This document shows, one piece after another, positions 2,770-37,589 of a stretch of 43,768 nt of DNA; position 1 is the first letter of the stretch, and each line of letters starts with the position of its first letter. Source of the stretch: a virus; IMG/VR virus record IMGVR_UViG_3300049629_000734, positions 1 through 43,768 of that record. One strand, given 5' to 3'. Under the pieces are notes generated by a model. That model worked only from the letters and a program-made list of their open reading frames with translations. It ran no database searches and was not told the origin of the DNA. The position numbers and the translations under genes are program-made.

Positions 2770-3578
2770 TGGAAAAGTATAAAATTAATTTAGTAGGTGA
2801 TTCCTTTACACATCTTACTGGTGGTAATAAAGGATATTCTGTGGCAGGAAAAGAATCTAAGTTTGTTCAATGGGTAAAAGATGATTCTCTTCCTGAAACA
2901 GTTTATGTTGATGCTTGGATCAATCAAGCATTTACTGATAAAATTTCTGGAATTAAATATGCTTGGTTATTAGAGTCCAAGTGTGTAACACCAGACATTG
3001 TAGATGAGGTTAAATTTAATTATGAAGAATATTTTAAAGTATTCAAATATATTTTTACTCATAATAAAGAACTATTAAATCTTGATGATAGATTTAAGTG
3101 GTGTCCTGCTAATGGTTTTTGGATTAAAGAACCAAAGATTTATGAGAAAAGTAAAATGATCTCCATGATCTCATCCAATAAAAATTTTACAGAAGGTCAT
3201 TTAAAAAGGTTAGAGTGGTTATCGAGGATTAGTGATCAGGTAGATGTCTATGGTAGAGGATTTAATGAAATAGAATTCAAAGAAGAAGGTCTATGTGATT
3301 ATATGTTTTCTGTTGTAATTGAAAATGGATTTTATGAGTCGTACTTCACTGAGAAGATTCTTGATTGTTTCGCTACTGGTACTATTCCTGTTTATTTGGG
3401 ATCTCCAGACATTAAAAACTATTTTAATGAAGATGGAATAATTTTCTTAACTGATGAATTTGACGTATCTGAAGAAATATATTATAGTAAAATGGATGCT
3501 ATTAAAGATAATTTGAAAAGGATAGAAGAAATTGAAGTCCTTGAAGATTTTATCTACAAACAATATTTGGAGAAATAA
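2769..3578 (+). CDS. GT10-type alpha-1,3-fucosyltransferase-like protein
   Basis: 269 residues; the start overlaps the preceding TAA by one base. Residues 178-213 contain the GT10 signature: a YMFSVVIEN stretch, then YFTEKILDCFATGTIPVYLG, corresponding to the Y.F....EN....Y.TEK...A...G..PV..G donor-binding motif of alpha-1,3/4-fucosyltransferases. The expected donor is GDP-fucose. No membrane anchor, as in bacterial GT10 enzymes. A GT11-like gene lies two genes downstream, so two fucosyltransferase families occur in one cassette. GDP-fucose synthesis genes are not in this window and would have to come from the host or elsewhere in the phage. Confidence 0.78.
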   Translation: MEKYKINLVGDSFTHLTGGNKGYSVAGKESKFVQWVKDDSLPETVYVDAWINQAFTDKISGIKYAWLLESKCVTPDIVDEVKFNYEEYFKVFKYIFTHNKELLNLDDRFKWCPANGFWIKEPKIYEKSKMISMISSNKNFTEGHLKRLEWLSRISDQVDVYGRGFNEIEFKEEGLCDYMFSVVIENGFYESYFTEKILDCFATGTIPVYLGSPDIKNYFNEDGIIFLTDEFDVSEEIYYSKMDAIKDNLKRIEEIEVLEDFIYKQYLEK

Positions 3579-4208
3579 ATGAGCACATTAGTTTATATTG
3601 GAACCAATGAAGGTGATGGACTAAAAGAATACATTAATCTGTATGATAGTGTTTATGCATTTGAACCTGATCCTGAAATTTTTAATATTTTGAAAAATAG
3701 GTTTGCAGATTGTGAACACGTAACTTTTATTAATGCAGCTTGCTCAGAAACAGAAGGTGTTAAAACACTTTATGTAACTGAAAATAGACATTCAACTTCC
3801 CTATCAGAATTGTCTGAATTTTCTTTGACTAAAGGATTTTCTGGAGGTAAAGCATCATTTAAAACCTTTGATGTCAATACCATTAATCTTAATAATTTTC
3901 TTAGTGAAAATGGCATTGATCATATTGATACTTTGATTACTGATTGTCAAGGGAGTGACCTTTCAATTCTTACTACAATTAAATCTTTTATTGATGATGG
4001 AAAAATTAGTGAGATCTTTTGCGAAACACATGCAAATTCTGTAGAACTTTATGAAGGTCTTTATAATCAGTATGATGGATTTAAGGAATTACTTTCTCAT
4101 AATTATGAAGTAAAAGATTTCTATCTTGATGGAAAACTTATGTCTAAAGATGGAGAACCTTTTGTTGAGTGGGATACTCATTGGATTTTGAAAAATGATA
4201 TCATTTAA
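3579..4208 (+). CDS. FkbM-family SAM-dependent methyltransferase
   Basis: 209 residues beginning directly after the previous stop. The N terminus reads VYIGTNEGDG, the degenerate SAM-binding glycine loop, followed by YAFEPDPE at residues 26-33, the acidic end of strand 2 typical of FkbM proteins. A later IDTLITDCQGSD segment matches the IDFLKIDVEG-like motif. FkbM enzymes O-methylate sugars or small molecules; within a glycosyltransferase cassette it likely caps or decorates a glycan. A 14-base overlap with the next gene suggests translational coupling. Confidence 0.82.
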   Translation: MSTLVYIGTNEGDGLKEYINLYDSVYAFEPDPEIFNILKNRFADCEHVTFINAACSETEGVKTLYVTENRHSTSLSELSEFSLTKGFSGGKASFKTFDVNTINLNNFLSENGIDHIDTLITDCQGSDLSILTTIKSFIDDGKISEIFCETHANSVELYEGLYNQYDGFKELLSHNYEVKDFYLDGKLMSKDGEPFVEWDTHWILKNDII

Positions 4209-16263: not shown

Positions 16264-17012
16264 AGTTACTTCATGTAGTTTTTTCTACTAATAGAGTAGA
16301 ATTTTTGAAAAAAACATTTGAAGCAAATAAAAAATTAGATTTTAGTGAATTGGATGTAGACCATTTATTCATTGATGATTATCCAAATGGACGGGATAAT
16401 GAATCTTTAGCAGAGTTTGTAGTAGCAAATGGATATAATGAAATTATTTTTCATGAAGAAAATCAAGGCATTACAAAAACTTGGCAAGAACTTTTCAATT
16501 TGGTTAGACAAAAAGATTATGATTATATCTTTCATCATGAAGATGATGTTGAAGTAATGTGTCCATTAAAGATAATGGATTTGATTGAACTTCTTGAACA
16601 AGACAAGACCTTATCTCAAATACAATTGAAAAGAAATAATTGGTATGATTTTGAAAAAGAAGAAATAGGTCCAAAAGATGATGATGTAATTTTTAAACAC
16701 TATAGATATGAAAAGGCAACTCCATATTTTTGGATGCTGATGTCTTTATATCCTGCTTGGATTGCTAAAGAACCTATCTTTGAAGAGACAGGATTCAATC
16801 CATCAGAATCAGTAATTGCAAATTACTTATTGAATAAGTATAATATTGGAGCAGGATTGTTGAAAACTGCTGAAGGTGGTATAATGGTAAATCATATTGG
16901 CGAATACTTTCATGGACAAAGAGTTTCTGAAGGAGAACCTGGATGGGATGGGTTTAAATATATTGATCCTAATGTAAAATATTGTTCTAAAACTGGTGTT
17001 ATTTTGGGATGA
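16260..17012 (+). CDS. Family 2-like glycosyltransferase
   Basis: 250 residues. GT-A layout: N-terminal LLHVVFSTNR strand, LFIDDYPNGRDN at about 36-47, then YIFHHEDDVEV at 89-99 with the metal-binding acidic cluster. The C-terminal region is aromatic, with NHIGEYFHGQR. It opens the second glycan block and is joined by overlap to a putative oxygenase. Donor unknown. Confidence 0.72.
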   Translation: MKLLHVVFSTNRVEFLKKTFEANKKLDFSELDVDHLFIDDYPNGRDNESLAEFVVANGYNEIIFHEENQGITKTWQELFNLVRQKDYDYIFHHEDDVEVMCPLKIMDLIELLEQDKTLSQIQLKRNNWYDFEKEEIGPKDDDVIFKHYRYEKATPYFWMLMSLYPAWIAKEPIFEETGFNPSESVIANYLLNKYNIGAGLLKTAEGGIMVNHIGEYFHGQRVSEGEPGWDGFKYIDPNVKYCSKTGVILG

Positions 17013-17575
17013 ATGTAAATCTTATAGTTGCAGATAACTTTTATAACAATCCTGATGATGTAAGAAACTTTGCATTATCACAGGAGTTTGCAGTAAGAGG
17101 AAACTATCCAGGATTGAGAACTAAATCATTTCTCAATGAAAGTAATAGAGAAGTCATAGATGCTCTTGTCTCTCATGCCTCTGGAGGTGTGACTGATTGG
17201 TTACTTGATGAAAATGGCGATGGATATACAGGAGCATTTCAAATTTGTACATCAATGGATCGTACATGGATTCACTCTGACTATAATAATATGTGGGCAG
17301 GAGTATGCTATCTAACGCCAAATGCTCCATTAAGTGCTGGTACTGCATTGTATAGGCACAAAAAAACTGGGGAGAGAGCATCTATAGACAACATTGATCA
17401 TGGTGAGGATGGACATGATTATACAAAATGGGAAACTGTAGATAGGATAGGAAACATTTACAATAGATTAATTTTATATCCTGGTAAGTTATTTCACGCT
17501 TCTATAGATTATTTTGGAAGTAATCTTCAAGATGGTAGATTATTTCAAACATTTTTTTTCAATACAAGGTACTGA
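17009..17575 (+). CDS. Putative 2-oxoglutarate/Fe(II) oxygenase-like protein (DUF6445-like)
   Basis: 188 residues. A WIHSDYNNMWAG segment places His89 and Asp91 as HxD, followed by LTPNAPLSAGT, then His163 (KLFHAS) and Arg177 (DGRLFQTFFF). The HxD...H...R order is that of the double-stranded beta-helix oxygenases, in which the three ligands hold iron and the arginine binds 2-oxoglutarate. The nearest family I recall is DUF6445. It lies between a glycosyltransferase and UDP-galactopyranose mutase and has a paralogue at 19755. Substrate unknown; a sugar or lipid-linked glycan is possible. Confidence 0.7.
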   Translation: MNVNLIVADNFYNNPDDVRNFALSQEFAVRGNYPGLRTKSFLNESNREVIDALVSHASGGVTDWLLDENGDGYTGAFQICTSMDRTWIHSDYNNMWAGVCYLTPNAPLSAGTALYRHKKTGERASIDNIDHGEDGHDYTKWETVDRIGNIYNRLILYPGKLFHASIDYFGSNLQDGRLFQTFFFNTRY

Positions 17576-17577
17576 TA

Positions 17578-18609
17578 ATGTCATTAGCATATGTGATTGG
17601 TTCTGGAACTGCTGGTGCTACATCAGCAAGGATACTCAAAGATAATGGATGGGACGTAGAGGTCTTTGAAACCAGAGAATATCTTTCTGGCAATTGTTAT
17701 GACTATGTTGATGAAAAAACAGGATGTGTAATTCATGCACATGGACCTCATGCTATCCATACAGATAATGATCGTGTTTGGGATTGGTTGAATCAATTTG
17801 CAGTTTTCAATAATTTTTCTGTTGAAGTATGGGCAAACACAAGTCTTGGAAAAATTCCTATTCCATATAATGACAACTCAGATAAAATTATTGGCAGAAG
17901 ATTATCTGACACTGAAATTAAGGAATTAGTATTCAGAGATTATTCTGAAAAAATGTGGGGAGTTAAGTTAGAGGAACTTCCTATGGGCATTTTGAATAGA
18001 CTTCCTATAAGAAAAAAAGGTTCTAATGGGTCTTTCACTCAACAAAAGTATCAAGGTCTACCTAAGAATGGATTTGTGGACATGTTCAAGAATATCTTTG
18101 ATGATATTCCAGTTCATTTAAATGTATCAAAAGATGAATGGCGAACACTCAAAGACAAATGTGACTTGTTAGTTTTTACTGGAAAGGTTGATAATTATTT
18201 TGATTATCAGTATGGAAAGTTATCTTATAGGTCATTGAACTTTGAACATGTCTATTGTCCTAAGACAGTGTATATCCAACTTAATGAATGCAACAGAAAT
18301 AATGAATGGAATCGTGCTATTGACCACTCTTATTGGTACAATCAAGATGTTGAAACTACAGTAGTTACAAGAGAATATCCAGTAGAACATATTGAAGGAT
18401 TGAATAATCCATATTATCCTATGATTTTTGGAAAGTATCTGGAACAGTTTGAACAATATAAACCATTAATGCAAGCAGAAAAAAATACAATTTTTGTTGG
18501 AAGAACTGCTACTTACAAATACTTGACTATAGATCAGACTATAGCAAGAACAGCAAACAAACTCAAAAGAATGGGATTTGTTGATAGAATACTTACACCT
18601 GAATTATGA
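17578..18609 (+). CDS. glf: UDP-galactopyranose mutase
   Basis: 343 residues, near the bacterial length of about 370. The N-terminal YVIGSGTAGATSA holds the FAD-binding glycine loop (residues 8-14), followed by an acidic strand end (VFETREYLSGN). HAHGPHAIHTDN and IPIPYN match the conserved active-site region of GLF, and YSEKMWG follows as in the family. It is a flavoenzyme that converts UDP-galactopyranose to UDP-galactofuranose, so the glycan built here likely contains galactofuranose. ATGA overlap with the next transferase. Confidence 0.92.
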   Translation: MSLAYVIGSGTAGATSARILKDNGWDVEVFETREYLSGNCYDYVDEKTGCVIHAHGPHAIHTDNDRVWDWLNQFAVFNNFSVEVWANTSLGKIPIPYNDNSDKIIGRRLSDTEIKELVFRDYSEKMWGVKLEELPMGILNRLPIRKKGSNGSFTQQKYQGLPKNGFVDMFKNIFDDIPVHLNVSKDEWRTLKDKCDLLVFTGKVDNYFDYQYGKLSYRSLNFEHVYCPKTVYIQLNECNRNNEWNRAIDHSYWYNQDVETTVVTREYPVEHIEGLNNPYYPMIFGKYLEQFEQYKPLMQAEKNTIFVGRTATYKYLTIDQTIARTANKLKRMGFVDRILTPEL

Positions 18610-32160: not shown

Positions 32161-32168
32161 TATTTAGA
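32161..32168 (-). promoter_or_regulatory. Minus-strand late promoter motif TCTAAATA
   Basis: 7 of 8 to consensus in the 31-base divergent gap between gene 4 and gene 54; it overlaps the first base of the gene 54 start codon. Should drive gp4-x-gp48-gp53. Confidence 0.5.
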
Positions 32169-32944
32169 TGGCAGTAGATTACACTAAGTTGTATTATAAA
32201 ACTGATGATATATTAAAGAAATTTAAACCTTCTTTATCTAATTATTTTAATGTGCATGTAAGTGCTGACTATGATGGTATCAACCAATCTTTTGAAAAGG
32301 ATATAGATTTTTTGGCATATGAGGCAGTTCTTCCAGGAACTTCATATGAAACCACGCAAGTATTTGGAGACAGACAAGGAATCACAGAAACATTTGCAAA
32401 TAAAAGAGTTTATCCTCCTGTAGATATAAGTTTTTATATTGATAATAACTATAATATTTTAAGATTTTTTGAAAGTTGGATGGGATATATTAGTCCAAAT
32501 TCAGGGGTTCCTTATGAGTCATATCAAAAGTTTAATTATCCTCAAAATAATGGATTAAGTGGATATAAAAAAGAAGTTATTATAACTAAATTTGAAAGAA
32601 ATTTTAGAACCCCTGACCAAAGATTAGTTGAGAATGGAGTATATGATGTTCCTGATAGTAACTGCACTTATATTTTAAGAAATGCTTATCCAACTAATGT
32701 AATTGCAGTTCCAGTTTCATATGAAGGCGCAAATATATTAAGAACAACAGTAACATTTAATTATGATATTTACAGATTTGAAAAGTCTGATGGAAAACCA
32801 ATAAATGGTGATGGTGGAAATTCAAGTGCTCAACCTGGAGGAGATTCTGGAGCAACATTGGGGGAATTAAATAGACAAGTTAGATTGATTAATGAAAATA
32901 TTCCTATCACTGGATTAAATCCTAACCCAAGAGATGTGGGATAA
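32168..32944 (+). CDS. 54: Baseplate tail-tube initiator gp54-like protein
   Basis: 258 residues (T4 gp54: 320). Tube-fold pattern: YEAVLPGTSYETTQVFGDRQ, YPPVDISFYIDNNYNILRFFE and a C-terminal VTFNYDIYRFE strand, as in gp19/gp48/gp54 paralogues. The C-terminal 50 residues are a Gly/Asn-rich tail. It forms the layer from which the tail tube polymerises. Diverges from gp4. Confidence 0.8.
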   Translation: MAVDYTKLYYKTDDILKKFKPSLSNYFNVHVSADYDGINQSFEKDIDFLAYEAVLPGTSYETTQVFGDRQGITETFANKRVYPPVDISFYIDNNYNILRFFESWMGYISPNSGVPYESYQKFNYPQNNGLSGYKKEVIITKFERNFRTPDQRLVENGVYDVPDSNCTYILRNAYPTNVIAVPVSYEGANILRTTVTFNYDIYRFEKSDGKPINGDGGNSSAQPGGDSGATLGELNRQVRLINENIPITGLNPNPRDVG

Positions 32945-32973: not shown

Positions 32974-33705
32974 ATGCCTTTACCTACAGTTGCAACTCCA
33001 ACCTATGAGTTGACATTACCATCAAACAAAAAGACTATTAAGTACAGACCTTTCTTAGTCAAGGAAGAAAAGATTCTTATCTTGGCTATGGAAAGTGGTA
33101 ATTCAAAAGATATTACTAATGCAGTTAAGAATACATTGAAAGATTGTATTTTAACCAGAGGCATTAAGATTGATTCTCTTCCAAGTTTTGATATTGAGTA
33201 TCTGTTTTTAAATATTAGAGCAAAGTCAGTTGGAGAATCAGTAGAATTAATCATCACCTGTCCAGATGATAATGAAACACGTGTAGATGTTACTGTTAAT
33301 ATTGATGAGATTGAAGTTGTAATTCCAGAAAATCATACATCTGAAATTAAAGTTGATGATAGTATTACAGTTAAGATGAAGTATCCATCACTTCAAGAGT
33401 TTATTGATAATAATTTTGATTTCTCTGGACAAACTGGAAGTAAAGAAACTATTGACAAATCATTTGATATTGTTGCATCTTGTGTGGATATGGTTTATAC
33501 CAAAGATGAATCTTGGTCTGCTGCTGATGTTACTAAGAAAGAATTGATTGAATGGTTACAGACATTTGATTCAAATCAATTCAAAGGTATTGAAGAGTTC
33601 TTTGATACTATGCCTAAACTTTCTCACACATTAACAGTTAAGAATCCAAACACTGGCGTTGAGAATGAAATTGTATTGGAGGGACTCTCAAGTTTTTTCG
33701 GATAG
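32974..33705 (+). CDS. 26: Baseplate hub protein gp26 (zero-frame product)
   Basis: 243 residues (T4 gp26: 208). N-terminal TPTYELTLPSNKKTIKYRPFLVKEEKILILA is the family's recognisable strand-helix start; the C-terminal half is helical (KELIEWLQTFDSNQF). gp26 is needed for hub assembly. The last codons AGT TTT TTC GGA TAG contain a perfect slippery heptamer, and the -1 frame continues for another 60 codons that encode gp51. GGAGGG at 33678-33683 lies in the coding sequence where a stimulator of frameshifting would be. Confidence 0.85.
   Translation: MPLPTVATPTYELTLPSNKKTIKYRPFLVKEEKILILAMESGNSKDITNAVKNTLKDCILTRGIKIDSLPSFDIEYLFLNIRAKSVGESVELIITCPDDNETRVDVTVNIDEIEVVIPENHTSEIKVDDSITVKMKYPSLQEFIDNNFDFSGQTGSKETIDKSFDIVASCVDMVYTKDESWSAADVTKKELIEWLQTFDSNQFKGIEEFFDTMPKLSHTLTVKNPNTGVENEIVLEGLSSFFG
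33678..33699 (+). promoter_or_regulatory. Programmed -1 frameshift site: internal Shine-Dalgarno plus T TTT TTC
   Basis: GGAGGG (33678-33683), 9 bases, then T TTT TTC at 33693-33699 in the exact X XXY YYZ phase of gene 26. Stop TAG follows at 33703. This is the dnaX arrangement, where an internal ribosome-binding sequence about 10 bases upstream promotes -1 slipping. A small GGA/TCC inverted repeat follows the heptamer; no strong downstream hairpin was found. Confidence 0.72.
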
Positions 33706-33881
33706 TCCTTAGTCATGAAGATTTGGAGTCTTATTATAGAGTTAATTTTGCCTTGATGCAGTATCATAAATACTCTTTGACTGAGATTGAAAATATGATG
33801 CCGTGGGAACGTGAAATCTACTTAACTCTTTTAGAAAATCATATCAAAGAAGAAGAAGAAAAAGCATCAAGAGTAAAATAA
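33699..33881 (+). CDS. 51: gp51 hub assembly catalyst, probably made as gp26-gp51 frameshift fusion
   Basis: 60 codons in the -1 frame after the slippery site, ending TAA 33879-33881, one base before the next ATG. The sequence includes YRVNFALMQYHKYSLTEIEN and PWEREIYLTLLENHIKEEEE, matching short gp51-like proteins of marine T4-like phages and the C-terminal extensions of frameshifted tail-assembly chaperones. Protein-like sequence begins well before the only ATG (33756), which has no ribosome site. Expected fusion product: 302 residues (32974-33699 joined to 33699-33881). Confidence 0.78.
   Translation, partial: RIVLSHEDLESYYRVNFALMQYHKYSLTEIENMMPWEREIYLTLLENHIKEEEEKASRVK
33765..33772 (+). 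promoter_or_regulatory. Late-promoter-like motif CATAAATA inside gene 51
   Basis: 7 of 8 to consensus, 110 bases before the tape-measure-like gene. Could be chance within coding DNA. Confidence 0.3.
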
Positions 33882-35600
33882 ATGACTCCAGGAGATTTTG
33901 GATTTAAAGATAGAGTATCTAGATTTATTTCAGGAGCAAGTTCCAGAAGTAAATTTGGATTCTCTGCTACGCCAAAACTCACAAGAATTGCTGGGATGTT
34001 TCCAAAAAGACAAGTCCCTCAACAAATTGTATCTGGGTCTTCTGAACAAACAGATCCAGAAATTGGAGCGCCAAAAAGAGTTATTTCTTCTTTAGGAAGA
34101 TTGACTTTAGACCTTGAGATTGTCAACAATAATCTTGATAGAATTGCATCAATTATTCTTCAAGATTATAAAGAAACTCAAGATACAAATAAAAAAGAAA
34201 TAGAAGATTTTAGAAAAAGAGTTGCAAATAGAGGTAGATTATTTGGTAAGAAAGAGTTAGGAGATAAGAAATCTGATGTTCTTGGTGCAGTTAAAAAATA
34301 TGTAGGGTCATTCTTTAGTGGTGCTGGAGGTGCTATCAGAGCACTCTCTATGTTTAATTTGATGCAGGGGATTTTATCTGGAGACCCATCTAAAATTATT
34401 GGACCACTTCTTGGAATAGGATTAACATATCTTCCTGCTATTGGTGCTGGAATTGCTGGTGCAGTAGCAACATCTTTGGTTGGGAAGTTATTTGGAGGTG
34501 GGGCAGCAACAAGAGCAGCAGCATCAGCAGCTCCTGCAGCAGCTGGAGCAGGGGGAGCACTTGGAAGATTGGGTAAATTTGGTGGAAGAGCTGCACTTGT
34601 TGGTGGAGGAATTGCATTAGCAAGTAGTATCTTCAATAGACCACAAGAAGATCAATCACAACAAAGATTAGAAGAACTTACACAACAACAAAAAGCATCA
34701 GTAGAACCTGGAAATTTAGTTCCAATTCCACAAGATGATTTGAGGAGATTCGAAAAATTAAACAAAAAATTTGAAGCAGCACTTGACTTTTTATTAGGCA
34801 AACAAAAAGAACAAGACAGGCAACCTCAAAAAACAGGTGGGAGAGGAGGTGGAGGAGGTGGGGGTGCTCCTCCCCCTCCTGGTCAAATTATGTCAGGACC
34901 TGCCCCTGGAGAAATTAATGCTTTGATGTCAGCAATTTCTGGAGCAGAAGGTGGATTAGAATCAGTTAATAAAATAGGTCCTATGCCTGGTTTGTCTCAA
35001 ATGACTATTGATGAAGCCATATCAAAAGTTGAATCATTCAGAGCACAAGGTAAAACCTCAGGGGCTATGGGCAACATGCAGCAAATGTCTTATTACTTGA
35101 GAGAAAGAGCTATAGCAGCAGGGTTAGATCCATCAACAGCATTGTATAATCAAGAAAATCAATACAAAATTAATAGAGCATATCTTGCCGGTCTTTTTTC
35201 TGGAGGAGAACAGGAAATAGTTAATTTAATTAGGTCAGGTAAAATCAATGAAGTAGTGAATAAATTAAAAGGAGTTTGGCCATCTCTTCCTGGAGGATCT
35301 CAAGAAAATGTTCATACATCAGATTTTTATAGAAGATTTCAAACTTTCTTAGGGCAAATATCATCTCCTGGAACTGTAACACCACCAATAAGTCCTGTTG
35401 CACCAGCACCAAGATCTGCAGCAACTGCTGCTCCAAGAGCACCACAAACACAAGTTACAGTTCTTCCTTTACCAACTCAACAACAATCTTCCCAAGCATC
35501 TGCAGTTTCTGGAGGAAATGATACTGTTCCATCAATAGATACTACTTATCCTGAAAACTTCTTGGCTTTGTATTCTAAACTAATCTATCAGATTGTTTGA
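33882..35600 (+). CDS. Tape-measure-like hub protein with lambda-R-like muramidase domain
   Basis: 572 residues. A charged helical N terminus (1-140) leads to a Gly/Ala-rich hydrophobic region (about 140-250, GLTYLPAIGAGIAGAVATSL), a Gln-rich linker and a poly-Gly/Pro stretch. Residues about 345-495 resemble the lambda endolysin/COG4678 muramidase fold: ISGAEGG with Glu356 as candidate catalytic acid, GAMGNMQQM, ENQYKINRAYL and VWPSLPGG at 465-472. The Pro/Ala-rich C terminus ends in a helix. It takes the place of T4 gp28/gp29 and likely carries local peptidoglycan cleavage during DNA entry. It follows gp51 with no gap. Confidence 0.75.
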   Translation: MTPGDFGFKDRVSRFISGASSRSKFGFSATPKLTRIAGMFPKRQVPQQIVSGSSEQTDPEIGAPKRVISSLGRLTLDLEIVNNNLDRIASIILQDYKETQDTNKKEIEDFRKRVANRGRLFGKKELGDKKSDVLGAVKKYVGSFFSGAGGAIRALSMFNLMQGILSGDPSKIIGPLLGIGLTYLPAIGAGIAGAVATSLVGKLFGGGAATRAAASAAPAAAGAGGALGRLGKFGGRAALVGGGIALASSIFNRPQEDQSQQRLEELTQQQKASVEPGNLVPIPQDDLRRFEKLNKKFEAALDFLLGKQKEQDRQPQKTGGRGGGGGGGAPPPPGQIMSGPAPGEINALMSAISGAEGGLESVNKIGPMPGLSQMTIDEAISKVESFRAQGKTSGAMGNMQQMSYYLRERAIAAGLDPSTALYNQENQYKINRAYLAGLFSGGEQEIVNLIRSGKINEVVNKLKGVWPSLPGGSQENVHTSDFYRRFQTFLGQISSPGTVTPPISPVAPAPRSAATAAPRAPQTQVTVLPLPTQQQSSQASAVSGGNDTVPSIDTTYPENFLALYSKLIYQIV

Positions 35601-35603
35601 TAA

Positions 35604-37589
35604 ATGGACCCAACATTACTTCTTAACAGACCAGTTGTAAAACCAAGAATAGTAGCAAAGATTACGAAGTTTAATAATCTTGTTGAGGTTTCTACTGAAG
35701 CTAGAAAGTCTTCTACTAAACTTAGAAAGGTTTTTGAAAAGGGAAGTTACCAAAAGAAAACCCAACTTTCAGTATTAAACAGATATAAAAAACGATTAGA
35801 AACTATTCAGAAACAAAATGATAGATCATTTCGTAAAAAACAAAGAGTAAAAGTTAAGTTACCAGACATTAAAAAGTATGTTGGAAACTTTTTTACGCCA
35901 GGATCTGCTGATGATCCTCTCAAAGCAATAGGAGCACTTGCAGCATTTAAAGCAGTTCAAAAAGGTTCTAAAGGTGATTGGGGTGGGGCATTAGCTTCTG
36001 GTTTAGTTGCAGCAGGATTAACTCTTGGACCTTCACTGTTGGGATTTGGTGCTGGTGCTTTGATGGGTAGAGGGGGAAGAGGAGGAGGTGTTGGTCCTGA
36101 AGTAGGAGTTACTCCTCCCAAACCATTAAAACCAGGGTCTATAAGTAGATTAAATGCATCACAAGCAAGATTCATTCAAGGTAGTGCAAATATTGGTGAT
36201 AGGGCAAGATTAATTCGTAGAGGAACTATTTCTCCTACAGGGGCATTTTCTCGTGGTGGTCCAGAGCAAATGGCAAAGTATGGGGCAGACACCTCAAAAG
36301 TTGGAAAAGCATTTGGTAGATTTGGTAAAGCAATTATTCCAGGCGTTGGTGCTGCAGTTGGGGCTATTGATGCAGGATTGAGAACAAGTGAAGGTGATTA
36401 CACAGGAGCTAAAATAGCAGGAACATCAGCAACTTTAGATGCACTTGCTGCTGCATCTGCTGCTACTGGAATTGGATTGCCAGTTGCTGGATTACTTTCT
36501 ATTGCATCATTTGCATTAGATGTAACTAATCTTGTTCGTGATTTAAGTGGCTCAAGTGAAAAAGAAGCACTGGCAAATAAATCTCAGCAAAATAGGTTAA
36601 AACAACAAACAGAAAAACAAAAACAAGCAGTTGAGGGTAAGAAGGAAGAAGGTGGAGCACTTACCTTTAGAAAAACTTTGAATGGTTATGAAAAGGCAGT
36701 TAATAAATTTGAAGAATTTGTTAAAGGATTTAAAGGTGGTATGGGAATGGGTGGGGAACAGTCTGGAGTTATTGAAACTGGAAATAGAGGATTAACTACT
36801 GGTGAATCCCTTCAAGATTTAGAAGCAACTGGAGGAGAAGTTCCAGGAAGACCAGATTCTGCTTATGGCCCAAGAGGAGGAAGACTACACAAGGGGAACG
36901 ATTATAATAGATCAGTTGGCACTCCAATCAGTATCATACAACCAGGAACTGTAACTGTTGCAGATATGAATTATGACCCCAGTGGATGGGGAGCAGTAGT
37001 TGAGATTAGACATCAAGATGGGTCTATAAGTAGGTATGCACACCTAAGTCAAATAAATGTTGCAGCAGGAACTCAAGTTTCTCCTGGACAAGTAATAGGA
37101 AAAGTTGGTGGTGCTCCTGGTGCTCCAGGATCTGGAAACTCTACAGGAGCGCATTTGCATTTTGAATATGAAAATGGTTCAGGAAGAATTGATCCAACTG
37201 CAATAGCACCAAGAATTTTTAGATTTGGTGGCGATGTAAGAGTTAAGCAACAATCAACACAACCACAACCTCCTGGTTCCAGACCAAGCACTGCAGCACA
37301 ATTGAGAGCAATTGGACAATCTGATGCTGCTTCACTATTAGAAAGACAACAACCTCCTGCTCCACGTAGACCTCCTTCAATTACACCTCCACCACGAACA
37401 CCAAGACCTGTTGGAAGTTTTCTTCCATATCAACAAGGAAGTCAACAACAAGTCACGGCATTTTATCCTGTGTCACAACCACAACAACAACCTATGCCAT
37501 CTGAAGATGTTCCTATGATGATGACAGGTCCATCAGAGCAACAGTTGTTAAATAGTTTCTATAAGAGAGTCCTTCTTAATACTGTATAG
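35604..37589 (+). CDS. Tape-measure-like hub protein with M23 peptidase domain
   Basis: 661 residues. The organisation parallels the preceding gene: basic helical N terminus, Gly/Ala-rich hydrophobic middle, low-complexity linker. Residues about 400-535 are an M23/LytM metallopeptidase: His429 and Asp433 (HKGND), the RYAHLSQ strand, and GAHLHFEY with His517 and His519. All zinc and catalytic residues are present, so it should cut peptidoglycan cross-links. The last 100 residues are Pro/Gln-rich and end in SFYKRVLLNTV, similar to the end of the preceding protein (ALYSKLIYQIV). The two may be ancient duplicates. Confidence 0.85.
   Translation: MDPTLLLNRPVVKPRIVAKITKFNNLVEVSTEARKSSTKLRKVFEKGSYQKKTQLSVLNRYKKRLETIQKQNDRSFRKKQRVKVKLPDIKKYVGNFFTPGSADDPLKAIGALAAFKAVQKGSKGDWGGALASGLVAAGLTLGPSLLGFGAGALMGRGGRGGGVGPEVGVTPPKPLKPGSISRLNASQARFIQGSANIGDRARLIRRGTISPTGAFSRGGPEQMAKYGADTSKVGKAFGRFGKAIIPGVGAAVGAIDAGLRTSEGDYTGAKIAGTSATLDALAAASAATGIGLPVAGLLSIASFALDVTNLVRDLSGSSEKEALANKSQQNRLKQQTEKQKQAVEGKKEEGGALTFRKTLNGYEKAVNKFEEFVKGFKGGMGMGGEQSGVIETGNRGLTTGESLQDLEATGGEVPGRPDSAYGPRGGRLHKGNDYNRSVGTPISIIQPGTVTVADMNYDPSGWGAVVEIRHQDGSISRYAHLSQINVAAGTQVSPGQVIGKVGGAPGAPGSGNSTGAHLHFEYENGSGRIDPTAIAPRIFRFGGDVRVKQQSTQPQPPGSRPSTAAQLRAIGQSDAASLLERQQPPAPRRPPSITPPPRTPRPVGSFLPYQQGSQQQVTAFYPVSQPQQQPMPSEDVPMMMTGPSEQQLLNSFYKRVLLNTV

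Follow-up and report, generated by a model that had tools for sequence, protein, structure and literature searches.

Frameshifting in genes for tail assembly chaperones (TACs) is classical and well known from lambda G/GT, in which a –1 slip shortly before the end of the chaperone gene, located between the tail tube and tape measure genes, gives rise to gpG and gpGT. In E. coli, dnaX carries the heptamer A_AAA_AAG, accompanied by a Shine-Dalgarno (SD)-like element about 10 nt upstream and a downstream stem-loop. As for T4-like phages, the abstract of Vladimirov, Gautam and Davidson 2022 is said to name T4 genes 26 and 51. In the passage citing it in PMC10885494 (PRFect), Vladimirov et al. 2022 (Virology 566:9-15) is credited with the observation that some T4-like phages have, in place of a frameshift, one short gene plus a long fused one, and in the corresponding passage of PMC12846349 with poly-T slippery sequences in the TAC-N genes of T4-like phages. 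The parts of PMC12846349 consulted also present phage Adele (Vandenendeviridae/Andersonviridae), whose TAC-N gene ends with a poly-T motif predicted to cause a –1 frameshift; every allele that the authors inspected has an open –1 frame. As judged from these citing papers, both tail-chaperone frameshifting in T4-like phages and the two-gene solution of T4 are already in print.

The junction of genes 26 and 51

The DNA analysed here, referred to as the window, is the 43,768-base IMG/VR virus record IMGVR_UViG_3300049629_000734, from a T4-like cyanophage. Its DNA-level matches comprised 441 phage records, with 355 Synechococcus phages, 49 cyanophages and 24 Prochlorococcus phages among them. In this window, genes 26 and 51 very probably constitute a single chaperone locus, from which two products would be obtained via a –1 slip at T_TTT_TTC (Table 1). 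Two separately annotated genes of a widespread phage group would in this way become one locus with two products.

Table 1. Features of the gene 26–gene 51 locus and its neighbours (positions in the window)
Feature	Positions	Strand	Evidence or remark
Upstream gene, tail tube protein	32168..32944	+	Pfam Phage_TTP_2, E 7.2e-14; phrog_45, E 9.1e-34
Gene 26, short form, predicted TAC-N, 243 aa	32974..33705	+	Pfam T4_baseplate PF12322, E 2.1e-75
GGAGGG, internal SD-like element, probable stimulator	33678..33683	+	9 bases 5′ of heptamer
Slippery heptamer T_TTT_TTC	33693..33699	+	in phase in 172/176 loci
Zero-frame stop TAG of gene 26	33703..33705	+	one codon past heptamer
–1 frame extension ("gene 51", predicted TAC-C domain), 60 codons + TAA	33699..33881	+	phrog_634, phrog_150, pN/pS
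Downstream gene, 572 aa, candidate tape measure	33882..35600	+	position and length only

The 3′ end of gene 26 reads AGT TTT TTC GGA TAG, where the heptamer has the X_XXY_YYZ phase and, in the –1 frame, is followed by no stop before the TAA at 33879-33881. The slippery phase, the zero-frame stop and the open –1 frame, as the original prediction had described them, were all read directly in the sequence. The GGAGGG, which had been put 9–10 bases before the heptamer, stands at the lower of these two spacings, and the recomputed products had the predicted sizes of 243 aa for gp26 and 302 aa (242+60) for the fusion. The first ATG of the –1 frame had also been correctly placed at 33756, which is codon 19 when the codon at 33699 is counted as 0; left unmentioned was a TTG at 33723 (codon 8), ahead of this ATG.

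Conservation of the heptamer and selection on the –1 frame

The comparison was made on 176 gp26 loci, consisting of the best 80 of each of two large scans, two plus one from further scans and, as the remaining rows, twelve phage records (L002-L005, L086-L093) and the window. The gp26 of PhiW-14 used as scan query returned one locus and that of SRB7757 none. The in-phase T_TTT_TTC was present in 172 of the 176 loci, in 104 of 108 representatives after clustering at 90% protein identity and in 21 of 25 at 70%. The heptamer phase, which the original prediction had proposed to follow in an alignment of the junction, was thus kept even in deeply diverged phages, since the heptamer-bearing loci belonged to cyanophages and also to Aeromonas, Vibrio, Delftia, Citrobacter, Stenotrophomonas and Nitratidesulfovibrio phages. 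The exceptions were Rhizobium phage RHph_I46 (TTTTTTG), Pseudoalteromonas phage XG4 (TTTTTTA), Methylophilales phage Melnitz-2, with a T8 run that the stop follows immediately, and Vibrio phage D492 (L091), devoid of the heptamer. The distance from heptamer to stop was identical in 104 of the 108 representatives. In D492, where gp26 ends at locus position 3672, the –1 frame is open for 59 codons and an ATG overlaps the stop; re-initiation or a different slip may have taken over in this lineage.

The bare TTTTTTC is not rare in the AT-rich window (31 copies against 32.8 expected), and an explanation by chance, or by a sequencing error splitting one gene, with nothing programmed, would draw on this abundance. 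It is already contradicted by the conservation of the heptamer and by the selection on the –1 frame described below, and we give it practically no credence. Where two Phe codons are present, codon use in the remainder of gene 26 would lead one to expect the in-phase heptamer in approximately 9% of cases. Among the aligned representatives, the first Phe codon was TTT in 107/107 and the second TTC in 105/106, while the TTC fraction ranged from 7 to 64% in the other 11 columns with at least 50 Phe. The gp26 records are related and hence not independent, which is answered in part by the saturated synonymous change and by a control site. This control, a second in-phase TTTTTTC of the window (17554, near the end of an ORF), was kept in only 13 of 80 relatives, although Phe-Phe-Phe was kept in all 80. 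The site is an 8-T run near the end of ORF 17009-17575, with the –1 frame open into ORF 17578-18609, whose product we take to resemble UDP-galactopyranose mutase. A second frameshift at this place was rejected, and the heptamer was considered to be there by chance in view of its poor conservation.

Selection beyond the junction was assessed by pN/pS in 718 pairs of representatives with 70-96% gp26 identity, in which synonymous differences were high (pS 0.43 to 0.68). The –1 frame presented values of 0.32 (codons 0-7), 0.21 (codons 0-18, which all precede ATG 33756) and 0.12 (codons 19-49), with no stops. For the same three intervals, values of 0.50, 0.90 and 1.12, with many stops, were obtained in the gp26 frame, and of 4.85, 1.90 and 4.57 in the third frame. 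Past the junction, the –1 frame was open for 55 to 66 codons in 174 of the 176 loci, running off the contig in the other two. The residue encoded last in the zero frame differs among representatives (G 66, A 20, V 10, S 4, others 4; n=104), and the –1 codon overlapping it encodes Arg in 98 of the 104. Purifying selection on the –1 frame therefore starts at the heptamer, ahead of the only ATG.

Start codons near the junction would offer another route to gp51. An ATG occurs up to 7 codons past the heptamer in 83 of the 108 representatives, often overlapping the stop or two bases beyond it, which makes a separately started gp51 possible in those loci; a GTG or TTG falls within the same 7 codons in four further representatives. 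Public records annotate gp51 as its own gene from about there, in accordance with a small separate protein made by coupled re-initiation near the gene 26 stop, with no functional fusion. However, 20 of the 108 representatives, including the window, have no start in that stretch, the exact TTT TTC codons and the Arg codon are conserved upstream of any ATG, and a gp26-like domain is found in frame within T4-type gp51, all of which render re-initiation as the sole source of gp51 improbable. The original prediction had held that an independent start with a ribosome site in relatives would count against a frameshift; the start codon was indeed common, but an SD-like sequence preceded it in only 3 of 87 representatives. 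A free gp51 may be produced besides the fusion in many relatives, being less likely in the 20 representatives devoid of a start.

Slippage of the RNA polymerase, by which some transcripts would have an altered run length, finds its substrate in the T-run, particularly in the eight T of Melnitz-2. Nevertheless, six T followed by C are found in nearly all loci, a run that is short for polymerase slippage, and both the X_XXY_YYZ phase and the SD-like site at fixed spacing are features of ribosomal slipping, so this explanation is even less probable than re-initiation. A programmed –1 frameshift joining gp26 and gp51, as originally proposed, is strongly supported by sequence comparison, considering the conservation of the heptamer and its phase, the selection on the –1 frame from the heptamer onwards and the existence of an in-frame T4-type gp51 homologous to the fusion.

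Elements that might stimulate the programmed frameshift were sought on both sides of the heptamer. Codon use at the upstream site was evaluated in those representatives that have LEG or IEG (97 of 108, cyanophage-type). The Glu codon was GAG in 75 of these 97, against a background of 30% (binomial p 2.5e-21), ranking second in GAG usage among 21 Glu columns. Moreover, the predicted duplex with the 16S tail reached –7.92 kcal/mol versus –5.79 kcal/mol for synonymous recodings (replicate sd 0.15), and no comparable excess of anti-SD pairing was observed at four upstream control places. These data indicate that the codons of the SD-like site are selected for anti-SD pairing in cyanophage-type loci, where the element probably stimulates slipping. 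A universal role was not upheld, because the full GGAGG was missing in all ten distant non-cyanophage representatives bearing the heptamer (L004, L005, L086-L090, L092, L174, L175), seven of which had GAGG, GAAGG or AAGG and three none of these. The conservation of the upstream GGAGG, which was also to be looked for in the alignment, hence holds at the codon level in cyanophage-type loci, but the element is weaker or absent in distant phages. On the downstream side, RNAalifold on 25 junctions returned no consensus pairs, and folding the window strand alone revealed nothing out of the ordinary (z 1.24 for the downstream fold and –0.81 for the other), so that no stem-loop stimulator was detected in these pseudoknot-free folds.

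A putative tail assembly chaperone pair and its T4 counterparts

The relation of the fusion to the T4 proteins was traced through profiles. The window gp26 matched PF12322 with 253.6 bits (curated cut-off 24.5), and the same family recognized both T4 gp26 (213.1 bits) and T4 gp51 (177.5 bits, residues 1-201, E 3.9e-52). The –1 part matched phrog_634, annotated as baseplate hub assembly catalyst (E 1.8e-28), as well as the C-terminal portion of phrog_150 (E 1.8e-8), a profile that covers both parts. In T4 gp51, phrog_634 matched residues 147-246, and phrog_150 was covered from 13 to 280 of 282. When conceptual fusions were compared with T4-type gp51 by HHalign, residues 12-294 of 302 were aligned with no gap across the junction (E 5.5e-21); the –1 part alone gave E 5.1e-9. 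The position of the slip matches the C-terminus of T4 gp26 (KEFFELL), which has no heptamer. By these alignments, T4 gp51 (249 aa) is a long form encoded in a single frame and paralogous to T4 gp26. As T4 gp51 is the counterpart of the entire fusion and T4 gp26 that of the short form, T4 has two genes where the phage of the window would have one locus with a slip. The original prediction was right in that T4 has two separate genes, but the correspondence of each to one half of the fusion was mistaken.

In a tree of the PF12322 domain with 37 rows, T4 gp26 and T4 gp51 each fell in one group of their own, and the 25 other rows, including the heptamer-less D492, together made up one side of a branch (91/82); because the T4 branches are flagged and long (2.65 and 1.74), no point of duplication is claimed. 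One further record (IMGVR_UViG_2974754850_000001, locus 3001-3746) has a T4-type gene 51 with the frame broken mid-gene, perhaps by a sequence error, and was left out of the comparison. T4 gp26 itself (locus 3492-4118) presented a weak match to phrog_1140, baseplate hub distal subunit (E 0.00095). A 2010 study of 26 T4-like phages (PMC3037559) had remarked on the absence of the first ~200 residues from gp51 of cyanophages and marine vibriophages, and the word "frameshift" does not occur in the parts of its text consulted. Cyanophage gp51 would have seemed a T4 gp51 without its first ~200 residues because the missing residues are those of gp26.

The function of the locus was approached by structure prediction. 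An AlphaFold model of gp26, built with 47 sequences (pLDDT 86.4), was compared with solved structures, and its residues 1-95 resembled 3fgx (Z 8.0, 86 aligned, 4.0 Å), 2ob9, the HK97 tail assembly chaperone (Z 7.8, 84 aligned, 4.0 Å), and 3klu (Z 7.3, 86 aligned, 4.2 Å), followed by 5ir0 (Z 5.4) and by a next row at 2.8. The first three are named as tail assembly chaperones in the portion of PMC9603447 consulted. A Z near 8 can arise by chance and a plain Foldseek search with the gp26 model gave no match below E 0.001, so the weight lies on the grouping of three chaperones well above the rest. Against the sequences of solved structures, the gp26 profile returned five rows, none relevant (best E 0.24), and the model of a T4-type gp51 (pLDDT 92.7) matched no known chaperone (best Z 4.8), in a list that depends on Foldseek preselection. 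Given the resemblance of the gp26 model to solved chaperones, the locus is best read as encoding a predicted pair of tail assembly chaperones, a TAC-N of 243 aa and a TAC-NC of 302 aa. The function is better put in these terms, as a short and a long chaperone form, than as a hub subunit joined to an assembly catalyst. The fourth fold match, 5ir0, is ORF19 of a Vibrio cholerae PICI-like element, of unknown function, and might be a chaperone-like protein with which a phage satellite disturbs the assembly of tails.

The neighbourhood was also inspected. The tail tube gene lies directly upstream of gene 26, according to both Pfam and PHROGs, and the downstream gene has about the length of T4 gp29 (590 aa, from coordinates), with no match to a tape measure family in the Pfam or PHROGs scans. 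In the relatives L005, L087, L089 and L093, and for one ORF of P-SSM2 (L002), the downstream genes belonged to families of unknown function or to none; a second downstream ORF of P-SSM2 had a weak tape measure match (E 0.0021). T4 gp51 is required, yet absent from the particle, according to the part of PMC3004832 consulted. The second gene past the locus (35604-37589) is a 661-aa ORF in which Pfam recognized an M23 peptidase domain (E 6.5e-22), possibly a tail-associated lysin.

The mechanism that follows is inferred as regards the slipping and how often it occurs, its stimulation by the SD-like site and the role of the products as chaperones. Most ribosomes would end at the gene 26 stop and produce the short form, TAC-N. 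A minority would be paused on T_TTT_TTC while the 16S tail is paired with the GGAGG lying 9 nt upstream, and these ribosomes would slip back one base at the P and A sites, bypass the stop and add the 60-aa C-terminal domain, yielding the long form, TAC-NC. If they act like lambda gpG/gpGT, both forms, present in a fixed proportion, would cover the tape measure protein, recruit tail tube subunits and then leave the tail. Reading all observations jointly, it might be, quite tentatively, that the cyanophage slip is driven mainly by the SD element at its fixed 9-nt spacing, in a dnaX-like way without downstream structure, that in most lineages the ATG at the stop adds a free C-terminal domain as third product, that slip and re-initiation jointly set the chaperone ratio, and that the T4 group then replaced the slip by gene duplication; we regard this extended reading as possible rather than probable.

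Comparison with known systems

The trick of a chaperone frameshift is known from phage tails and is met here in a well-conserved, unannotated form. In the literature searched, some of it in excerpts, no paper naming a cyanophage gp26-gp51 join was found, and its absence from print is not claimed, Vladimirov et al. 2022 being known to us via citing papers. As cited there, the T4-like TACs of that study share with the present locus the short TAC-N, the long TAC-NC and a poly-T slippery sequence. The window differs in being an unannotated cyanophage fragment, and the SD-like site, the codon tests and the fold match come from the present analysis; the codon-level SD evidence and the fold match are additions, not found in the literature searched. 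The TAC locus of Adele, as far as presented in the parts of PMC12846349 consulted, likewise ends TAC-N with a poly-T –1 frameshift, but belongs to other phage families and has the motif GTTTTT.

The likeness to lambda gpG/gpGT consists in a –1 slip near the end of the chaperone gene, and the likeness to HK97 gp13 (2ob9) in the N-terminal part of the gp26 model. In contrast to both systems, no lambda- or HK97-type chaperone family was assigned to gp26 in the Pfam and PHROGs scans, and gp26, with ~240 aa, has further protein beyond the TAC-like part; the heptamer T_TTT_TTC is not that of lambda either. With dnaX, the window shares an internal SD-like element upstream of the heptamer, differing in the heptamer itself and in the downstream structure, which was not found at its junction. 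T4 gp26 and gp51 belong to the same family, PF12322, the latter aligning with the whole fusion. In T4 and the T4-type loci examined, however, the two forms come from two divergent genes. One locus with a slip and the two genes of T4 would offer a natural comparison for the ratio of short to long chaperone that a contractile tail needs.
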